Under the pieces are notes generated by a model. The model was given only the letters and a program-made list of their open reading frames with translations. It did not search any database and had not been told where the DNA came from. A program made the translations under genes and the position numbers. A stretch of DNA of 53,907 nucleotides from Alphaproteobacteria bacterium (GTDB lineage: Bacteria > Pseudomonadota > Alphaproteobacteria > UBA7985 > JAUIBT01), in NCBI GenBank assembly GCA_030432195.1, contig JAUIHE010000005.1:1-53907 (forward strand), read 5' to 3'. Of this stretch, positions 8,318 to 53,906 are shown piece by piece (position 1 is the stretch's first letter; every line of letters begins with the position of its first letter).

Positions 8318-11158
8318 TCAATCACCGGTGCCAGAGAAGAACTCTTTGACCTGGGACAGGGCGTCTTGAAGACCAAGGCGTTCGATCTCCATGCCTTCGG
8401 GGAAGGCGCTGGTTAGCCGGGTCGGCAGGCCACCATCGAGCATGACAAAGACCCCGCGATCATCTTGGCGGCGAATGAGACGTCCAAAGGCCTGGCGCAA
8501 TTTGAAACGGACCAACTGCTCATCATAGGCGCGCCCGCCAAAGGCCTGACGGCGCGCCTTATGAATGATGGTCGGCCGCGGCCACGGCACCCGATCCATA
8601 ATGACCATGCGAAGCGCTAGACCCGGTACGTCGATCCCGTCGCGCAGCGCATCGGTACCCATGAGACAGGCGTGGGTATCGCTGCGAAACATCTCGATCA
8701 GCGAGCCCGGGTCGCTGGCGTCGATGTGCTGAGCCAGCAAGCTCAAGCCCGCCTGTTCCAGATCTTCGGCCATAAGTCCGTGAACCTGACGCATGCGGGC
8801 GATCGAGGTGAACAGGCCCAAGGCCCCGCCGCCGCTGGCCTGCATCAGCGCCCGCATGGCCCCTGCCAATTGGGCCGGATCTTGCTTGTTGAGATCGGTG
8901 ACCACCAAAACCCGTGCCGCCTTGCCATAGTCAAAGGGCGAAGGATGGCGTGTCATCACCGGTGGTTGCGGCAGGTGGCAAGCCCCGGTGCGCTGCTCGG
9001 CCAGGCGCCAATCGGCCTCGACATCGCCGCTGGTATCCCCCAAAGTCGCAGACGTTATTAGAAGGCCGTGGCTTTGAAATCGCAGGGTCTGCATCAGTGG
9101 TTGGGTCGGGTCGATGAAATGGCGAAACGCGCCAAGATCGCGGTCCTGGCCATCAATGCGCACCACTTCCAGCCAATCGACTTGACCGTCGAGCGGCTCG
9201 TCAGACAAAAGGCTGGCGGTCATGTCCCGCCAAGAGCGCAGCGGCTCGATCGCGCGTAGTGTCAGACTGCGAATGAGGCCTTCCAGGCGGCGGCGTTGAT
9301 CGCTGTCGAACTGGTCGGGCTGGTTGGCTAGCAGTTCGCCCAACAGGCGTTCCAGCTCGACCAGCGGTTTTTCCAACTTGCCCAGCGCCTCATTCAGGGC
9401 CGCCGCTGCCTCGGCCAACTCCGGCAGGACCGGGCGCACGTCGCATTCCAACGTATAGGGGTCTTGCGGCTTGGCGGTTCGCGCATAGACCTGGCGGCCC
9501 ACGGCCAGCAAAAAGGCCTCGACGGCGCCTTGGGGTTCCTGAGCGGCCAGGCGTTTGGCCCAGAAGGGCGCCGGCAGACAGGTCGCGCCGAAAATCGCCT
9601 GCTGGGTTGCCCGGTCGATCGCATCGTTTTCCAGCAGCAAATCGTCCAAGCGTGATTGCAGCCCTCGGCGGCGACCCGGCCGCGCGCGCCCGTCCTCACG
9701 CCCCAACAGCCAACGCCGCGTCTCTTGCGTCTCGCGCCCGGTCAAACGCGCACAAAACACCGAGTCCGCCGCATCGAACAGGTGGTGGCCCTCATCGAAG
9801 ACATAGCGCGTCGGCAGGCCGCTCTCGCTGGCTTGGGCCGCTTGCAGGCTGGGCCCCACCGCCTGGGTCGCGGCCTGATGCAATACCAGCGCATGATTGG
9901 CGATGACCAGCTTGGCCTGGCGCGCCTTGCGGATCGAGCGCTCCACATAGCAGCGCCGATAGTGGGTGCAGGCGGAGAACAAGCATTCCCCGCGATGGTC
10001 AGCAAGCTCAGCCAAAGCAGCGCCGGAGAAAAGCTCGCCCATCCAGACCGGCAAATCCCCGCCAACCAGCTCACCGGACCGGCTGGCCTGAACCCAACGT
10101 GCCATCAGCGCCAAGAACACCAGATCGCGCGGTCGCAATGTCATCGACTGGCTGGCTTCTTCAAAGTTCATCAAGCAGAGGTAGTTCTCGCGCCCCTTGC
10201 GCACGACAACCTGGCGCTGCTTTTGCGCCGGTTCGGGATAGAGGCGGTCCAGTTCTTGGTCCAGCTGACCTTGCAGGACGCGGGTAAAGGTAGACAGCCA
10301 GACGCTGCCCTTGTTCTTGTCGGCCCAAATACTGGCCGGGGCCAAATAACCCAACGTCTTGCCAGTGCCGGTGCCCGCTTCTGCCAACACAGTTTGCGGC
10401 TCCCCAAAGGCCTGGGCGGGGGCAAAGGCTTCGGCGACGGCTTGCGCATAGGCCGCTTGCTGGGGGCGAATTTCCGCCTGTGTGCCCGCCGCGATCAGAT
10501 CGGCCAGGCGCCCGCGCACTTCATCAGCGCGCAAGGGCTGGGTGCCTGGGGGATCAATTGGGCCGCTGTCTTCCCATTCAGGCAGATCACGCCAGACCGC
10601 TAAGTTACGCTGAGCGTTGGCTTGTCCACCCAGGCCCTTGGCGCGCAAGATGGCATTGACATAGGGCGACCAAGCCCAATCGGCCTCGCTGAGCACCTGT
10701 GCCAGGCCGACAATGGCGGCTTGCTTCAAGGGTAGACTAGCATCCAATTCGCGGAGCAGCAGATTTGCCGCTTCAAGCAAGGTCTGGGCTTGCTGGGCGT
10801 CATCATTGGGCACCGGTAGATCCAGGGCCAGCGCCAAACCCTGAGCAGAGGGGGCACAGCTCTGCGCAGGCCGCACAAAGGCGAACAGCTCCAAGACATC
10901 CAGACCTTTGAGCGCGGACAAACCGAGGCGGCGTTTTGTCAATCCCGCATGGCAGAAGATCACGGCTCCGGCTTGTCCTAGGCGCGAGACCTCGCTAGGC
11001 TCTACCCTTCGCAGCCTTGTCGGGCCGCTTTCGACTTCATCCAACAGACCAGGGCCCGCGTTGGCCGTATAGATCCAGGCATAGCCCGTTCTTGCCAGAA
11101 CCACGGCCGCGCTTGGCGAAAGCTGTTTGGGGTCAAAGTCTGGGGTCACGGCAACCAA
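8318..11158 (-). CDS. ATP-dependent DNA helicase, DinG/XPD-like
   Basis: Walker A 'AEAGTGTGKTLGYLAPA', 'DEGHHLFD' Walker B, Fe-S-type cysteines (CLFSACTHYRRCYVERS), 'LRQAFGRLIRRQDDRG' motif VI. Confidence 0.88.
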   Translation of the reverse strand: MVAVTPDFDPKQLSPSAAVVLARTGYAWIYTANAGPGLLDEVESGPTRLRRVEPSEVSRLGQAGAVIFCHAGLTKRRLGLSALKGLDVLELFAFVRPAQSCAPSAQGLALALDLPVPNDDAQQAQTLLEAANLLLRELDASLPLKQAAIVGLAQVLSEADWAWSPYVNAILRAKGLGGQANAQRNLAVWRDLPEWEDSGPIDPPGTQPLRADEVRGRLADLIAAGTQAEIRPQQAAYAQAVAEAFAPAQAFGEPQTVLAEAGTGTGKTLGYLAPASIWADKNKGSVWLSTFTRVLQGQLDQELDRLYPEPAQKQRQVVVRKGRENYLCLMNFEEASQSMTLRPRDLVFLALMARWVQASRSGELVGGDLPVWMGELFSGAALAELADHRGECLFSACTHYRRCYVERSIRKARQAKLVIANHALVLHQAATQAVGPSLQAAQASESGLPTRYVFDEGHHLFDAADSVFCARLTGRETQETRRWLLGREDGRARPGRRRGLQSRLDDLLLENDAIDRATQQAIFGATCLPAPFWAKRLAAQEPQGAVEAFLLAVGRQVYARTAKPQDPYTLECDVRPVLPELAEAAAALNEALGKLEKPLVELERLLGELLANQPDQFDSDQRRRLEGLIRSLTLRAIEPLRSWRDMTASLLSDEPLDGQVDWLEVVRIDGQDRDLGAFRHFIDPTQPLMQTLRFQSHGLLITSATLGDTSGDVEADWRLAEQRTGACHLPQPPVMTRHPSPFDYGKAARVLVVTDLNKQDPAQLAGAMRALMQASGGGALGLFTSIARMRQVHGLMAEDLEQAGLSLLAQHIDASDPGSLIEMFRSDTHACLMGTDALRDGIDVPGLALRMVIMDRVPWPRPTIIHKARRQAFGGRAYDEQLVRFKLRQAFGRLIRRQDDRGVFVMLDGGLPTRLTSAFPEGMEIERLGLQDALSQVKEFFSGTGD

Positions 11159-11255: not shown

Positions 11256-12260
11256 ATGCCTAGCCATCCGAATGAAGCCCATGTTCGCAGCCTGTTCAAG
11301 CCCGTCGCTTGGGCAAATCGCGTGCTAAGCCCGGCAATGCAAGCTGTCGTGTTGGTTGTTCTGTCTGCGTTCTTCTTTTCGATCATGAACGTCACGATCC
11401 GAATAGTCACCCAAGGCGACATTCCGGTGCTTGAGGTTGTAGCCTTTCGCAACCTGTTTGGGTGGATGGTGTTGTGGCCTTGGTGGTTGCGTGTCGGTCG
11501 TTATGCCTTTCAAACACCTGCCCCGCGCTTTTACATCTTTCGCTCCAGCGTCGGAATGTTGGGGATGATCCTCATGTTTTGGTCGGTCAAGCTGCTGCAC
11601 CCTGCCGAGGCGGTGGCGCTCAACTTCACGCTGCCTTTGTTTGCGGTGATCGGCGCCTATTTCTTCTTGGGCGAGAAGGTCGGGGCGCGGCGCTGGGGCG
11701 CGACCGCCGTAGGTTTTCTGGGTGTTCTGATCATGCTACAACCGGGTGCTGGCACCTTCAAGCTGGCCGCCATCGTGCCGATCGCTGCTGCGGTCGCTAT
11801 GGCCGCGGCCATCTTGAGCGTCAAACACCTCACGCGGCTCGGCGAAGATCCGGTGCGCGCGGTCTTCCTCAACGGCATGATTGCCACACCGCTGACCTTT
11901 GCCATGGCCGCAACGGTTTGGGTCACGCCCAGCTGGACCCAGTTGGCCATTTTGTTCTTGATCGGCATCATGGGCACGCTGGCGCACATTACTTTTACCA
12001 TGGCTTTCAAGCTGGCGGACGCCTCCTACCTGATCGGCTTTGACTATTTACGCCTGCCCTTCGTCGCTGTCTTAGCCTATTTCTGGCTGGGCGAGGTGCC
12101 GACGGTCTGGATTTGGCCCGGCGCTGGTCTGATCGCATTGTCGTCGGTCTACATCGCCCAGCGCGAACGCAAGCGCGCCCTGGAAGCTATGGCAAAAGAT
12201 CCGCAATCTCGGCCCGCAACGCCGGTAGCAAAGTCTCATGAAACCAAGGATGCTTTTTGA
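11256..12260 (+). CDS. DMT superfamily (EamA) transporter
   Basis: Multi-TM protein with two EamA-type repeats ('LPLFAVIGAYFFLGEKVGARRWGATAVGFLGVLIML', 'LPFVAVLAYFWLGEVPTVWIWPGAGLIALSSVYI'). Confidence 0.85.
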   Translation: MPSHPNEAHVRSLFKPVAWANRVLSPAMQAVVLVVLSAFFFSIMNVTIRIVTQGDIPVLEVVAFRNLFGWMVLWPWWLRVGRYAFQTPAPRFYIFRSSVGMLGMILMFWSVKLLHPAEAVALNFTLPLFAVIGAYFFLGEKVGARRWGATAVGFLGVLIMLQPGAGTFKLAAIVPIAAAVAMAAAILSVKHLTRLGEDPVRAVFLNGMIATPLTFAMAATVWVTPSWTQLAILFLIGIMGTLAHITFTMAFKLADASYLIGFDYLRLPFVAVLAYFWLGEVPTVWIWPGAGLIALSSVYIAQRERKRALEAMAKDPQSRPATPVAKSHETKDAF

Positions 12261-32124: not shown

Positions 32125-32223
32125 GGCGGAAGGCTGGAGCGGACGGCTCCCTCGCCAACCCGGTCAGGTCCGAAAGGAAGCAGCCGTAACGAGTTCGATC
32201 CGGGTCGAGCCAGTCTTCCACCT
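32125..32223 (+). ncRNA. ffs: Bacterial small signal recognition particle RNA (4.5S)
   Basis: Hallmark loop 'GGTCAGGTCCGAAAGGAAGCAGCC' with terminal helix GGAAGGCTGG/CCAGTCTTCC; located upstream of dnaX. Confidence 0.93.
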
Positions 32224-51062: not shown

Positions 51063-51270
51063 CGCGCGAAAAGTCGCCTGTTGGACGCAAGCGCTTCGCC
51101 CTAGACCGCTGACAAGGCGCGCGCGCCGTTGGTTGCGCGCCATCGCCTGTGAGGGTGGCCTCCAGGCCAAAATCAGGGGCGGGTACCACGAACAATACAT
51201 AAACAACCAACAAGCGATAAAAGAAATTGCCATTATATTGCGCATATCATAGAACTAATCACGAACAAAA

Positions 51271-51290
51271 AGCTTGGCAATCGCCGAGCT
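51271..51290 (+). promoter_or_regulatory. 5'UTR hairpin (AGCTTGGC-aatc-GCCGAGCT) ahead of the first MANTF gene
   Basis: 8-bp stem with one G-U, AATC loop, followed by GATAGGAGT SD; homologous hairpin at 53047-53064. Confidence 0.7.
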
Positions 51291-51309
51291 TCCTGATAGG
51301 AGTAACTCT

Positions 51310-51855
51310 ATGGCAAACACCTTTTACCCCAATCCGCTATTGGCGAGCGCTGCAGTCTCAACCTATGGACCCAATCGCCAGTTGAGAATGCGGCCGCGCA
51401 ACGCGGTCCTGCGCGGCGAAGCCGTCGCGCGGATTTTGTACCCACCCGTCGAGGTAAAACCCCACAGCTGGCGTTCAAAACACTTTGAGCAGCCCAATGC
51501 ACCGCCTGTAAAGCCGGGCAAGATCACCTACGTTGACCGCAGGGATGACGGCATCAGGCCGCTACCTGGATACTTGGTTCACCGAAAACGTGGTGAACCA
51601 AGAGCTCTTGAAGGCAGAATAGCCAAGCAAGTATGCGCTCTTACAATTGGAGGTTTGGGCGCGATGCATGGATCAAAAGCTGGCCCATGGGGCACCCTTG
51701 CAGGCGGCGTCCTCGGCGGCGTCCTCGGCGGGGTCTTGGGTGAGATTGGCTGTGATCAGGCTGGCGAATTCAATCTTCCCAGTATTCAGCCAGGCATTCC
51801 AAGTCCAAATGGCAGGATAGACCACAACGGCAATACGATTAACCCTCACCTCTAA
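51310..51855 (+). CDS. MANTF-module protein A: conserved N-terminal module + Gly-zipper segment (candidate bacteriocin-like toxin)
   Basis: 181 aa; paralog of 53085-53636; 'GGLGAMHGSKAGPWGTLAGGVLGGVLGGVLGEIG' glycine-zipper; SD GATAGGAGT. Confidence 0.7.
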   Translation: MANTFYPNPLLASAAVSTYGPNRQLRMRPRNAVLRGEAVARILYPPVEVKPHSWRSKHFEQPNAPPVKPGKITYVDRRDDGIRPLPGYLVHRKRGEPRALEGRIAKQVCALTIGGLGAMHGSKAGPWGTLAGGVLGGVLGGVLGEIGCDQAGEFNLPSIQPGIPSPNGRIDHNGNTINPHL

Positions 51856-51922
51856 ATAAGGCTTACGCAATGGGAGTGACTTAGCAATCACTCCCTTCTT
51901 GCTATATGCGGATAGAATCCAT

Positions 51923-52081
51923 ATGTCAAAAACCACTCATTTTGCTATTATATTTGCTATAATGCTTGTAGCAAATATAATAAGAGAAGCTCATGACATC
52001 AGCTTTTCTTTATATCTTGTTGCAATTGGAGCTTCCGCCTTTATGATAGGAGAGATATATAAACAAACAAATGAAAATTAA
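51923..52081 (+). CDS. Small (52 aa) two-helix membrane protein, candidate immunity for protein A
   Basis: MSKTTHFAIIFAIMLVANIIREAHDISFSLYLVAIGASAFMIGEIYKQTNEN; 67 bp downstream of protein A. Confidence 0.5.
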   Translation: MSKTTHFAIIFAIMLVANIIREAHDISFSLYLVAIGASAFMIGEIYKQTNEN

Positions 52082-52399
52082 GTCGAGAAAATTTTGCAAA
52101 TAATTACTATGTAATATGAACTATTAAACTATCACACACTTGTAAACATAAAAATAATTTTGCTATGTATTACACCTAAATGTGTATAGCAATTACAGCC
52201 GTTGTTATACCTACTTTTCGTGAATATATGCGTACCGTTGCATGCGTTTAATATAATTGTTTGTAAGATCACTTCGTACATGCGGCTGTCAATACCTTGA
52301 GTTAATTACATATATGATGTTGTTATTTACTATAAATTGATTTCATCAAATTTGGTAAGTTAATAGTATATAAATTACACTTAGTTGGCGATATATATT

Positions 52400-52630
52400 A
52401 TGAATAAAAGCAATCTAAAAATAAGTCTAATATATGCAATCTTGACAACTGTAATGTGGGAAGTTGTAATGTCTATTATAGCTTGGAAGGAATATAAGCT
52501 ATATTTGGTGTCATTTACCGCCCCTATCATGATTTTGGTTCTTACATATATCACTTATAGGCGACTAAATAAAAAAAATCCAAAACAATCATATTTGGAA
52601 GCAATAAGTGTGACTTATCTGCAAGGATGA
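52400..52630 (+). CDS. Small (76 aa) two-helix membrane protein
   Basis: MNKSNLKISLIYAILTTVMWEVVMSIIAWKEYKLYLVSFTAPIMILVLTYITYRRLNKKNPKQ...; ATG start at 52400. Confidence 0.5.
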   Translation: MNKSNLKISLIYAILTTVMWEVVMSIIAWKEYKLYLVSFTAPIMILVLTYITYRRLNKKNPKQSYLEAISVTYLQG

Positions 52631-52779
52631 ATGCAATTATGGTTCACTTTTATAAAACACAATTTAGATGCCAGCTATCAAAACTCCGCCATGAGTTCCG
52701 TTTAACCCTGTGATCATGAGTTCTTGTACAGGTACCTGTGCACTTGCATTTGATGCTGTTACAGCCGAAATGACGGAAT

Positions 52780-52959
52780 ATGAAACCAATCCTTAAGATA
52801 ATTTTCGGTCTTACTACAATTACGAGCTTTATATTTATTGCTGATAGCCTGTCTCTGGGCGTGCCAGGTGTGATAGGAGCGTCAATTTTATATGCGGTTG
52901 TAGACTATGTTCTCTTTGGCGGGGCCCGCCGTCGCCGCCGACCGCCTGAGCGCCACTGA
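52780..52959 (+). CDS. Small (59 aa) hydrophobic protein with Arg-rich tail; absent from the supplied ORF track
   Basis: Manual translation: MKPILKIIFGLTTITSFIFIADSLSLGVPGVIGASILYAVVDYVLFGGARRRRRPPERH*. Confidence 0.45.
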   Translation: MKPILKIIFGLTTITSFIFIADSLSLGVPGVIGASILYAVVDYVLFGGARRRRRPPERH

Positions 52960-53046
52960 GGCAGTGCCAATCCCGAACTATTAACAGGCGAAAACAAATA
53001 ATTGCACTATCGGCTAATTTGCGATCGAACATATATAGAACAAACC

Positions 53047-53064
53047 TCTTGGCAATCGCCAAGA
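53047..53064 (+). promoter_or_regulatory. 5'UTR hairpin (TCTTGGC-aatc-GCCAAGA) ahead of the second MANTF gene
   Basis: 7-bp perfect stem, same AATC loop and position as 51271-51290. Confidence 0.7.
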
Positions 53065-53084
53065 TCTCTGATAGGAGTGTCTCT

Positions 53085-53636
53085 ATGGCAAACACCTTTG
53101 ACCCTAATCTGCTTTTGGCGCGCGCCTCGGACTCGCCCTACGGTGCGAAGCCCTCGTTGCGCCCGCAACCTTTCAACCCAGCCTTGCGAGGCGAAGCTCT
53201 GAAACGGTTCTTGTATCCACCTGTCAAGGTGCGGTCACACACCTGGCGTTCAAAGCACGACGAACAGCCCATCACAACGCCTGCGCACCGACGTACAGGT
53301 CCACAAGCCTCTGGGCCCAAGATAACCTACCCACACGCTTATGTTCGGCGCGGACCAGGTTATCCGGAAAACGGCCCAACACCTGCAACGGCTTACTCAA
53401 GACAAGCGATTGCAAAGAAATCTTCCCCTACGCCGGTGAATTGGAAAAGATTCTCCCGGTGTGGCTTGGACATCTTCAACGGCGCTCGTACTGGGGCCTG
53501 GGCCTTCGGAGCGCCGGGAGCAGCTATTGGAGCGATTTCACCTGATCCTGCCACGACGATAGCTGGCGCTGGAATAGGCGCAGGTATTGGCTCGGTTGTT
53601 GGCGGCCTGGCGGGCTATGCAGGCTCGGACGCCTGA
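53085..53636 (+). CDS. MANTF-module protein B: conserved N-terminal module + Gly-zipper C-terminus (candidate bacteriocin-like toxin)
   Basis: 183 aa; 'CGLDIFNGARTGAWAFGAPGAAIGAI...AGAGIGAGIGSVVGGLAGYAG'; SD GATAGGAGT. Confidence 0.7.
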   Translation: MANTFDPNLLLARASDSPYGAKPSLRPQPFNPALRGEALKRFLYPPVKVRSHTWRSKHDEQPITTPAHRRTGPQASGPKITYPHAYVRRGPGYPENGPTPATAYSRQAIAKKSSPTPVNWKRFSRCGLDIFNGARTGAWAFGAPGAAIGAISPDPATTIAGAGIGAGIGSVVGGLAGYAGSDA

Positions 53637-53705
53637 CGACAAGGCTCGATGTCTCCGAAATAGAGCCACACACCGGCTGGTCCTGTCATAAGAAAGAAAC
53701 GCTCT

Positions 53706-53906
53706 GTGGTCTTCTTGCTGCTCGCAATCGTTGGAATTTATGTGCTGGTAAGCTTCGTGACTATAACGGTTGCTTATCACTTGCTGAAAGCCAAGGACGT
53801 CAAAGACCCCAAGAAGGATTCCCGCATCTATGGTTCTTTGGCGGCGCTGGCGATCGTGCTCTACTATGTGCCAGAATACATTAAGCTCGTTATGAAAATC
53901 TGCTGA
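53706..53906 (+). CDS. Small (66 aa) two-helix membrane protein, candidate immunity for protein B
   Basis: GTG start; VVFLLLAIVGIYVLVSFVTITVAYHLL...IYGSLAALAIVLYYVPEYIKLVMKIC; 69 bp after protein B. Confidence 0.5.
   Translation: MVFLLLAIVGIYVLVSFVTITVAYHLLKAKDVKDPKKDSRIYGSLAALAIVLYYVPEYIKLVMKIC

Follow-up and report, generated by a model that had tools for sequence, protein, structure and literature searches.

What is the function of two neighboring genes whose products share an N-terminal module, end in different Gly-zipper sequences and are each followed by a small hydrophobic open reading frame? The genes, encoding proteins A and B, were found in a window of 53,907 nucleotides that makes up all of contig C142 in G000, an alphaproteobacterial genome assembled from a metagenome and 86% complete. 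The genes aroE, coaE and dnaQ lie upstream of A. Elsewhere in the window, positions 32128-32222 encode a bacterial small SRP RNA (RF00169). An earlier note on this DNA had correctly listed A, B and their small ORFs while missing 52400-52630 and 52780-52959, which lie in the AT-rich DNA between A and B, both LexA-type boxes and the stem at 51872-51895. The features of the locus are as follows.

51252..51266, + strand: LexA (SOS) box GAACTAATCACGAAC, 58 nt 5' of the A ATG; the motif is also found upstream of lexA in three genomes
51310..51855, + strand: protein A, putative toxin; N-module (about residues 1-60), linker and Gly-zipper C-terminus
51872..51895, + strand: terminator-like stem-loop (8 bp stem) separating A from its small ORF
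51923..52081, + strand: putative immunity protein of A, hydrophobic, 52 aa; conserved in G001
52400..52630, + strand: possible orphan immunity gene, 76 aa, two-helix, without a toxin of its own
52780..52959, + strand: possible orphan immunity gene, 59 aa, two-helix, without a toxin of its own; conserved upstream of B in G001
53027..53041, + strand: LexA (SOS) box GAACATATATAGAAC, 58 nt 5' of the B ATG
53085..53636, + strand: protein B, putative toxin; N-module, linker and Gly-zipper hairpin C-terminus
53706..53906, + strand: putative immunity protein of B, 66 aa, two-helix, GTG start; the G001 copy differs by one residue and shows no synonymous change

Proteins A and B share an N-module and diverge thereafter. 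Both genes start with ATG and carry an AGGAG Shine-Dalgarno sequence upstream. The two N-modules are 59-60% identical over 67-68 aa (E 4.8e-14 and 1e-15), confirming the shared module of about 60 aa described earlier. The match stops before the C-termini and the remainder is unrelated except for its Gly-zipper composition. The last 75 residues of A contain 8 GxxxG motifs compared with 3.9 expected from same-residue shuffles (P 0.011), those of B 7 compared with 2.6 (P 0.001), in agreement with the proposal of divergent C-termini with GxxxG spacing. Toxin proteins of this family are 180-205 aa long and possess neither a signal peptide nor a lipobox, and a double-glycine leader is absent from their MANTF.., MKYP.. 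and MSYTT.. N-termini. Searches of Pfam and NCBIfam returned no family above curated cut-offs for the toxins or small ORFs, and no similarity to known bacteriocins, colicins, pyocins or immunity proteins was found. PHROGs and PADLOC likewise gave no family above cut-off and a PDB sequence search gave no chain. Judging from these searches, the N-module, for which the earlier note had recognized no family, and the small ORFs fall in no known family. An AlphaFold2 model of B built from eight sequences was uninformative (pLDDT 44.7, pTM 0.13) and was set aside. The 5' leaders of A and B (window 51275-51310 and 53050-53085) contain the hairpin CUUGGC-AAUC-GCCAAG or a close variant just before the Shine-Dalgarno sequence, which is poorly preserved in G001.

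Thirteen related cassettes or remnants are present in three genomes of the uncultured genus (G000 and two other species, G001 and G002). G000 encodes a third full copy, C, on contig C71, with a 55-aa membrane ORF behind it. A degraded copy on contig C179 retains a B-like Gly-zipper end out of frame with its start; the 102-aa membrane ORF downstream of this remnant is intact and is a relative of B's small ORF (z 6.0). In G001, the N-module of A is B-like, and both B and C are frameshifted; the small ORFs are intact in all three cassettes. The G001 frameshifts could be assembly errors; one G001 contig has about 5x stated coverage. G002 carries two tandem full cassettes and a headless Gly-zipper fragment behind dnaQ, the same position as in G000. 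The tandem cassettes are separated by a duplicated dnaQ 3' end (L026:8201-8446), probably left behind by an insertion or duplication driven by homology. Elsewhere in the order, other families have secB or a permease gene immediately after dnaQ, indicating that the cassette site is empty there. G002 encodes a further cassette on contig C13 as well as C-type copies beside mutY at the end of C33 and on C24, the latter truncated. A very long, repeat-rich autotransporter-like protein is encoded near the C13 toxin cassette (L028:1774-6999). Among 387 genomes of the class, other genera, phages, plasmids and IMG/VR viral contigs, no relatives were accepted. N-module matches outside the genus in the 387 genomes had E values of 0.001-0.007, occurred in about the number expected by chance and several contained stops; they were rejected.

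The N-module recurs with unrelated C-termini, the pattern for which the earlier note had proposed to search. Three MSYTT-type copies in G002 have different ends but a near-identical N-module, and at least 110 bases upstream of it are near-identical as well. In addition, G001 A matches G000 B at 90-98% from the start codon to about residue 56, a stretch over which it matches G000 A at only 76-88%, while its upstream region and everything from about residue 57 onward match G000 A, indicating that the front module was replaced. Synonymous divergence between G000 and G001 is 0.11 for A outside the swapped module, 0.07 for A's small ORF and 0 for B's small ORF, compared with 0.5, 1.0 and 1.4 for the backbone genes dnaQ, coaE and aroE, respectively. 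Transfer of the cassettes between species is thus more recent than the divergence of the backbone. Overall, one constant N-terminal part is joined to ends that can be exchanged, and candidate immunity genes are linked to them, the combination by which polymorphic toxins are recognized.

The toxin genes are preceded by LexA-type boxes. In G000, A, B, C and the C179 remnant each have a perfect GAAC-N7-GAAC 34-63 nt 5' of their start (joint chance about 2e-11), and perfect sites are also found upstream of the G001 orthologs and of the G002 cassettes G2_C33e and G2_C24. The three MSYTT copies of G002 carry AAACATAACGCGAAC at -83 with one mismatch. The lexA gene itself has the upstream box GAACTAAGATAGAAC in all three genomes, and the published alphaproteobacterial LexA motif GTTC-N7-GTTC is the same sequence read on the other strand (PMC8565304, PMC3323433). 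Only one-mismatch LexA sites were found upstream of recA; lexA and the published motif are consequently the basis on which the box was identified. A LexA-controlled promoter, as is characteristic of colicin-like bacteriocins, is thus predicted for the toxin genes. Two further GAAC-N7-GAAC sites are present in the window on the minus strand (11283-11297 and 11358-11372). They lie 125-215 nt upstream of the gene for a DinG-like helicase (8318-11158, minus strand) but within an EamA-type gene that is divergent from it; in E. coli, dinG belongs to the SOS genes. Orthologous membrane/PH-like proteins of about 173 aa in G001 and G000 (G001:C69 and G000:C191; L071, L075) have GAACATA-N4-GAAC 170-190 nt upstream of their genes.

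Every intact toxin gene in the three genomes is followed by its own small hydrophobic ORF. The earlier note had named co-linear full-length homologs without linked small ORFs as the pattern that would speak against a toxin/immunity layout; this is not what the copies, with their varying C-termini, display. It had also placed a two-helix membrane ORF about 70 bp after each toxin. The placement is accurate, with gaps of 67 bp for A and 69 bp for B, but hydropathy shows only one clear transmembrane helix and a weak second one in A's small ORF. In three cassettes the toxin gene is broken and the small ORF intact, as is the case for frameshifted B in G001. Toxins with similar ends tend to have small ORFs that are also alike (Mantel r 0.45, P 0.017), a correlation based on only eight pairs and driven by few of them. 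Five cassettes (A, C, G2_C33e, G2_1 and G2_2) have strong stem-loops of unrelated sequence separating the toxin from the small ORF, consistent with separate transcription as constitutive immunity would require. We infer from this linkage and pattern of decay that each small membrane ORF likely encodes the cognate immunity protein of the adjoining toxin.

A candidate route for toxin release is offered by an unlinked lysis-type cassette. Scanning the genomes with the narrower box GAACATA-N4-GAAC, whose matches also included toxin genes, we identified, in G000 (C4:306-1657; L066/L076) and G002 (C28:89911 on; L070), the two genomes checked for it, a cassette of three genes immediately preceded by a LexA-type box. 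The first gene encodes a CHAP endolysin (TIGR02594, 128 bits compared with a cut-off of 70.55), followed by a staphylococcal-nuclease (SNase) homolog and a 113-114-aa membrane protein without a family that is possibly a holin. The cassette neighbors are not phage genes and no prophage is evident. The cassette is unlinked to the toxin loci and tied to them by shared control only; it may provide an SOS-timed lysis route for the toxin. No exporter genes were seen beside the copies in the neighborhoods we read. Delivery by T6SS or a VirB4-type T4SS was considered and rejected: TssB/VipA (PF05591) and the VirB4 ATPase (PF03135) are absent from G000, G001 and G002. Contractile-tail gp25 is found only in G002.

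Taken together, A and B are probably SOS-controlled, colicin-like bacteriocin toxins, a reading against which several alternatives can be weighed. Caulobacter, a member of the same bacterial class, produces the contact-dependent Gly-zipper toxins CdzC/D, which leave the cell through a type I system, stay on the surface of the producer and are paired with a small transmembrane immunity protein, CdzI (PMC5380434). A and B could by analogy be surface-displayed, with the small ORFs being CdzI-like. However, CdzC/D are 84-86 aa long, carry N-terminal leader-type signals and are encoded beside the cdzAB exporter, whereas the proteins described here are more than twice that length, lack adjacent exporter genes and are preceded by SOS boxes instead of being under stationary-phase control, making a Cdz-like mode of action unlikely. 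Non-toxic Gly-zipper envelope proteins, the alternative already considered in the earlier note, are suggested by weak sub-threshold matches to the Gly-zipper_Omp and Rick_17kDa families. The missing signal peptide and lipobox, the LexA boxes, the diversified C-termini with linked small ORFs and the frequent decay of the genes all argue against such a role, which we regard as very improbable.

Two further alternatives keep the toxins and reassign the role of the small ORFs or the target. The small ORFs could act as holins or lysis proteins in toxin release instead of conferring immunity: at 52-72 aa, with two hydrophobic helices and in many cases a basic tail, they share a layout with class II holins, and a lysis gene ends some bacteriocin operons (PMC9517006). 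Yet they diverge along with the toxin C-terminus, survive toxin breakage and in some cases stand without a toxin (52400-52630 and 52780-52959), a pattern of decay that fits lysis proteins less well, and the endolysin/holin-like cassette with its own SOS box is present separately. A lysis function of the small ORFs is therefore quite doubtful. Alternatively, the pairs could be intracellular toxin-antitoxin systems whose TisB-like toxins depolarize the membrane of the producer for dormancy and are not weapons. LexA boxes and predicted membrane-active ends would suit SOS persistence toxins, but an intracellular membrane toxin has no need for a conserved, swappable front of 60-100 aa, and diversified ends, toxin-less small ORFs and interspecies exchange typify weapons, so that this explanation also appears improbable. 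Anatomy, control and evolution of the cassettes fit an SOS-controlled modular bacteriocin family better than any of these rivals, and the bacteriocin or polymorphic toxin/immunity layout originally suggested gains support from LexA boxes, broken toxins with intact small ORFs and exchange between species.

The cassettes resemble several known systems in part. Like pore-forming colicins, they combine LexA/SOS control and the lack of a signal peptide with an N-terminal entry part, a C-terminal membrane-acting part and a membrane immunity protein (PMC9517006), these roles being predicted here. In contrast to colicins of several hundred amino acids with a ten-helix pore domain, the proteins are short, end in a Gly-zipper and are encoded in chromosomal arrays. 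The small ORF lies downstream on the same strand, whereas the immunity genes of pore-forming colicins usually lie on the opposite strand (PMC9517006); there is no adjacent lysis lipoprotein gene and sequence similarity was not found. The Cdz system shares with them alphaproteobacterial Gly-zipper proteins and a small transmembrane immunity protein but, beyond the differences discussed above, lacks a common front module joined to swapped ends. Class IIb bacteriocins and class II microcins such as MccV have Gly-rich, membrane-active GxxxG segments and a small hydrophobic immunity protein, and the class IIb/Blp likeness drawn in the earlier note holds to that extent; it does not extend to the double-glycine leader and dedicated exporter of those peptides, in place of which we find the N-module, a greater length and SOS-type control. 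EsxX and TelE (T7SS), Tse4 (T6SS) and CDI ionophores similarly join a constant delivery part to a variable depolarizing C-terminus with cognate immunity (PMC12744356, PMC10434224, PMC12169545, PMC11630599), and EsxX is also accompanied by toxin-less immunity genes. These toxins depend on T7SS, T6SS or CdiA, whereas TssB is absent here and the proteins stand alone.

In the bacteriocin model that we favor, LexA would repress each toxin gene until DNA damage induces it. Toxin without a signal peptide would accumulate in the cytoplasm and probably be released by lysis of a fraction of cells, perhaps through the unlinked CHAP/SNase/holin-like cassette. The shared N-module would target the toxin to closely related cells or serve for import into them, and the variable Gly-zipper C-terminus would insert into the inner membrane and depolarize it, matching the delivery and pore-forming roles proposed for the two parts in the earlier note. 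The adjoining small membrane ORF, probably transcribed separately behind the terminator-like stem, would provide cognate immunity, while recombination within the shared N-module and the sequence upstream would swap heads and spread cassettes between species. We tentatively extend this to a genus-specific platform, a reading in which we have somewhat less than even confidence: an N-module of about 60 aa (core PHSWR, followed a few residues later by E) would import interchangeable Gly-zipper toxins into related cells, recombination through the module would spread the cassettes, and SOS control would couple toxin production with a dedicated lysis cassette.

The previously undescribed gene set is, on the sequence evidence, best read as a new bacteriocin family. 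If this is true, it would add an SOS-controlled modular family to the Alphaproteobacteria and join colicin-type regulation and release with the Gly-zipper depolarizing ends of Cdz, T7SS and T6SS toxins, so far seen apart. The N-module would represent a new import domain with a searchable receptor, and the array behind dnaQ would show how such cassettes multiply and swap heads.
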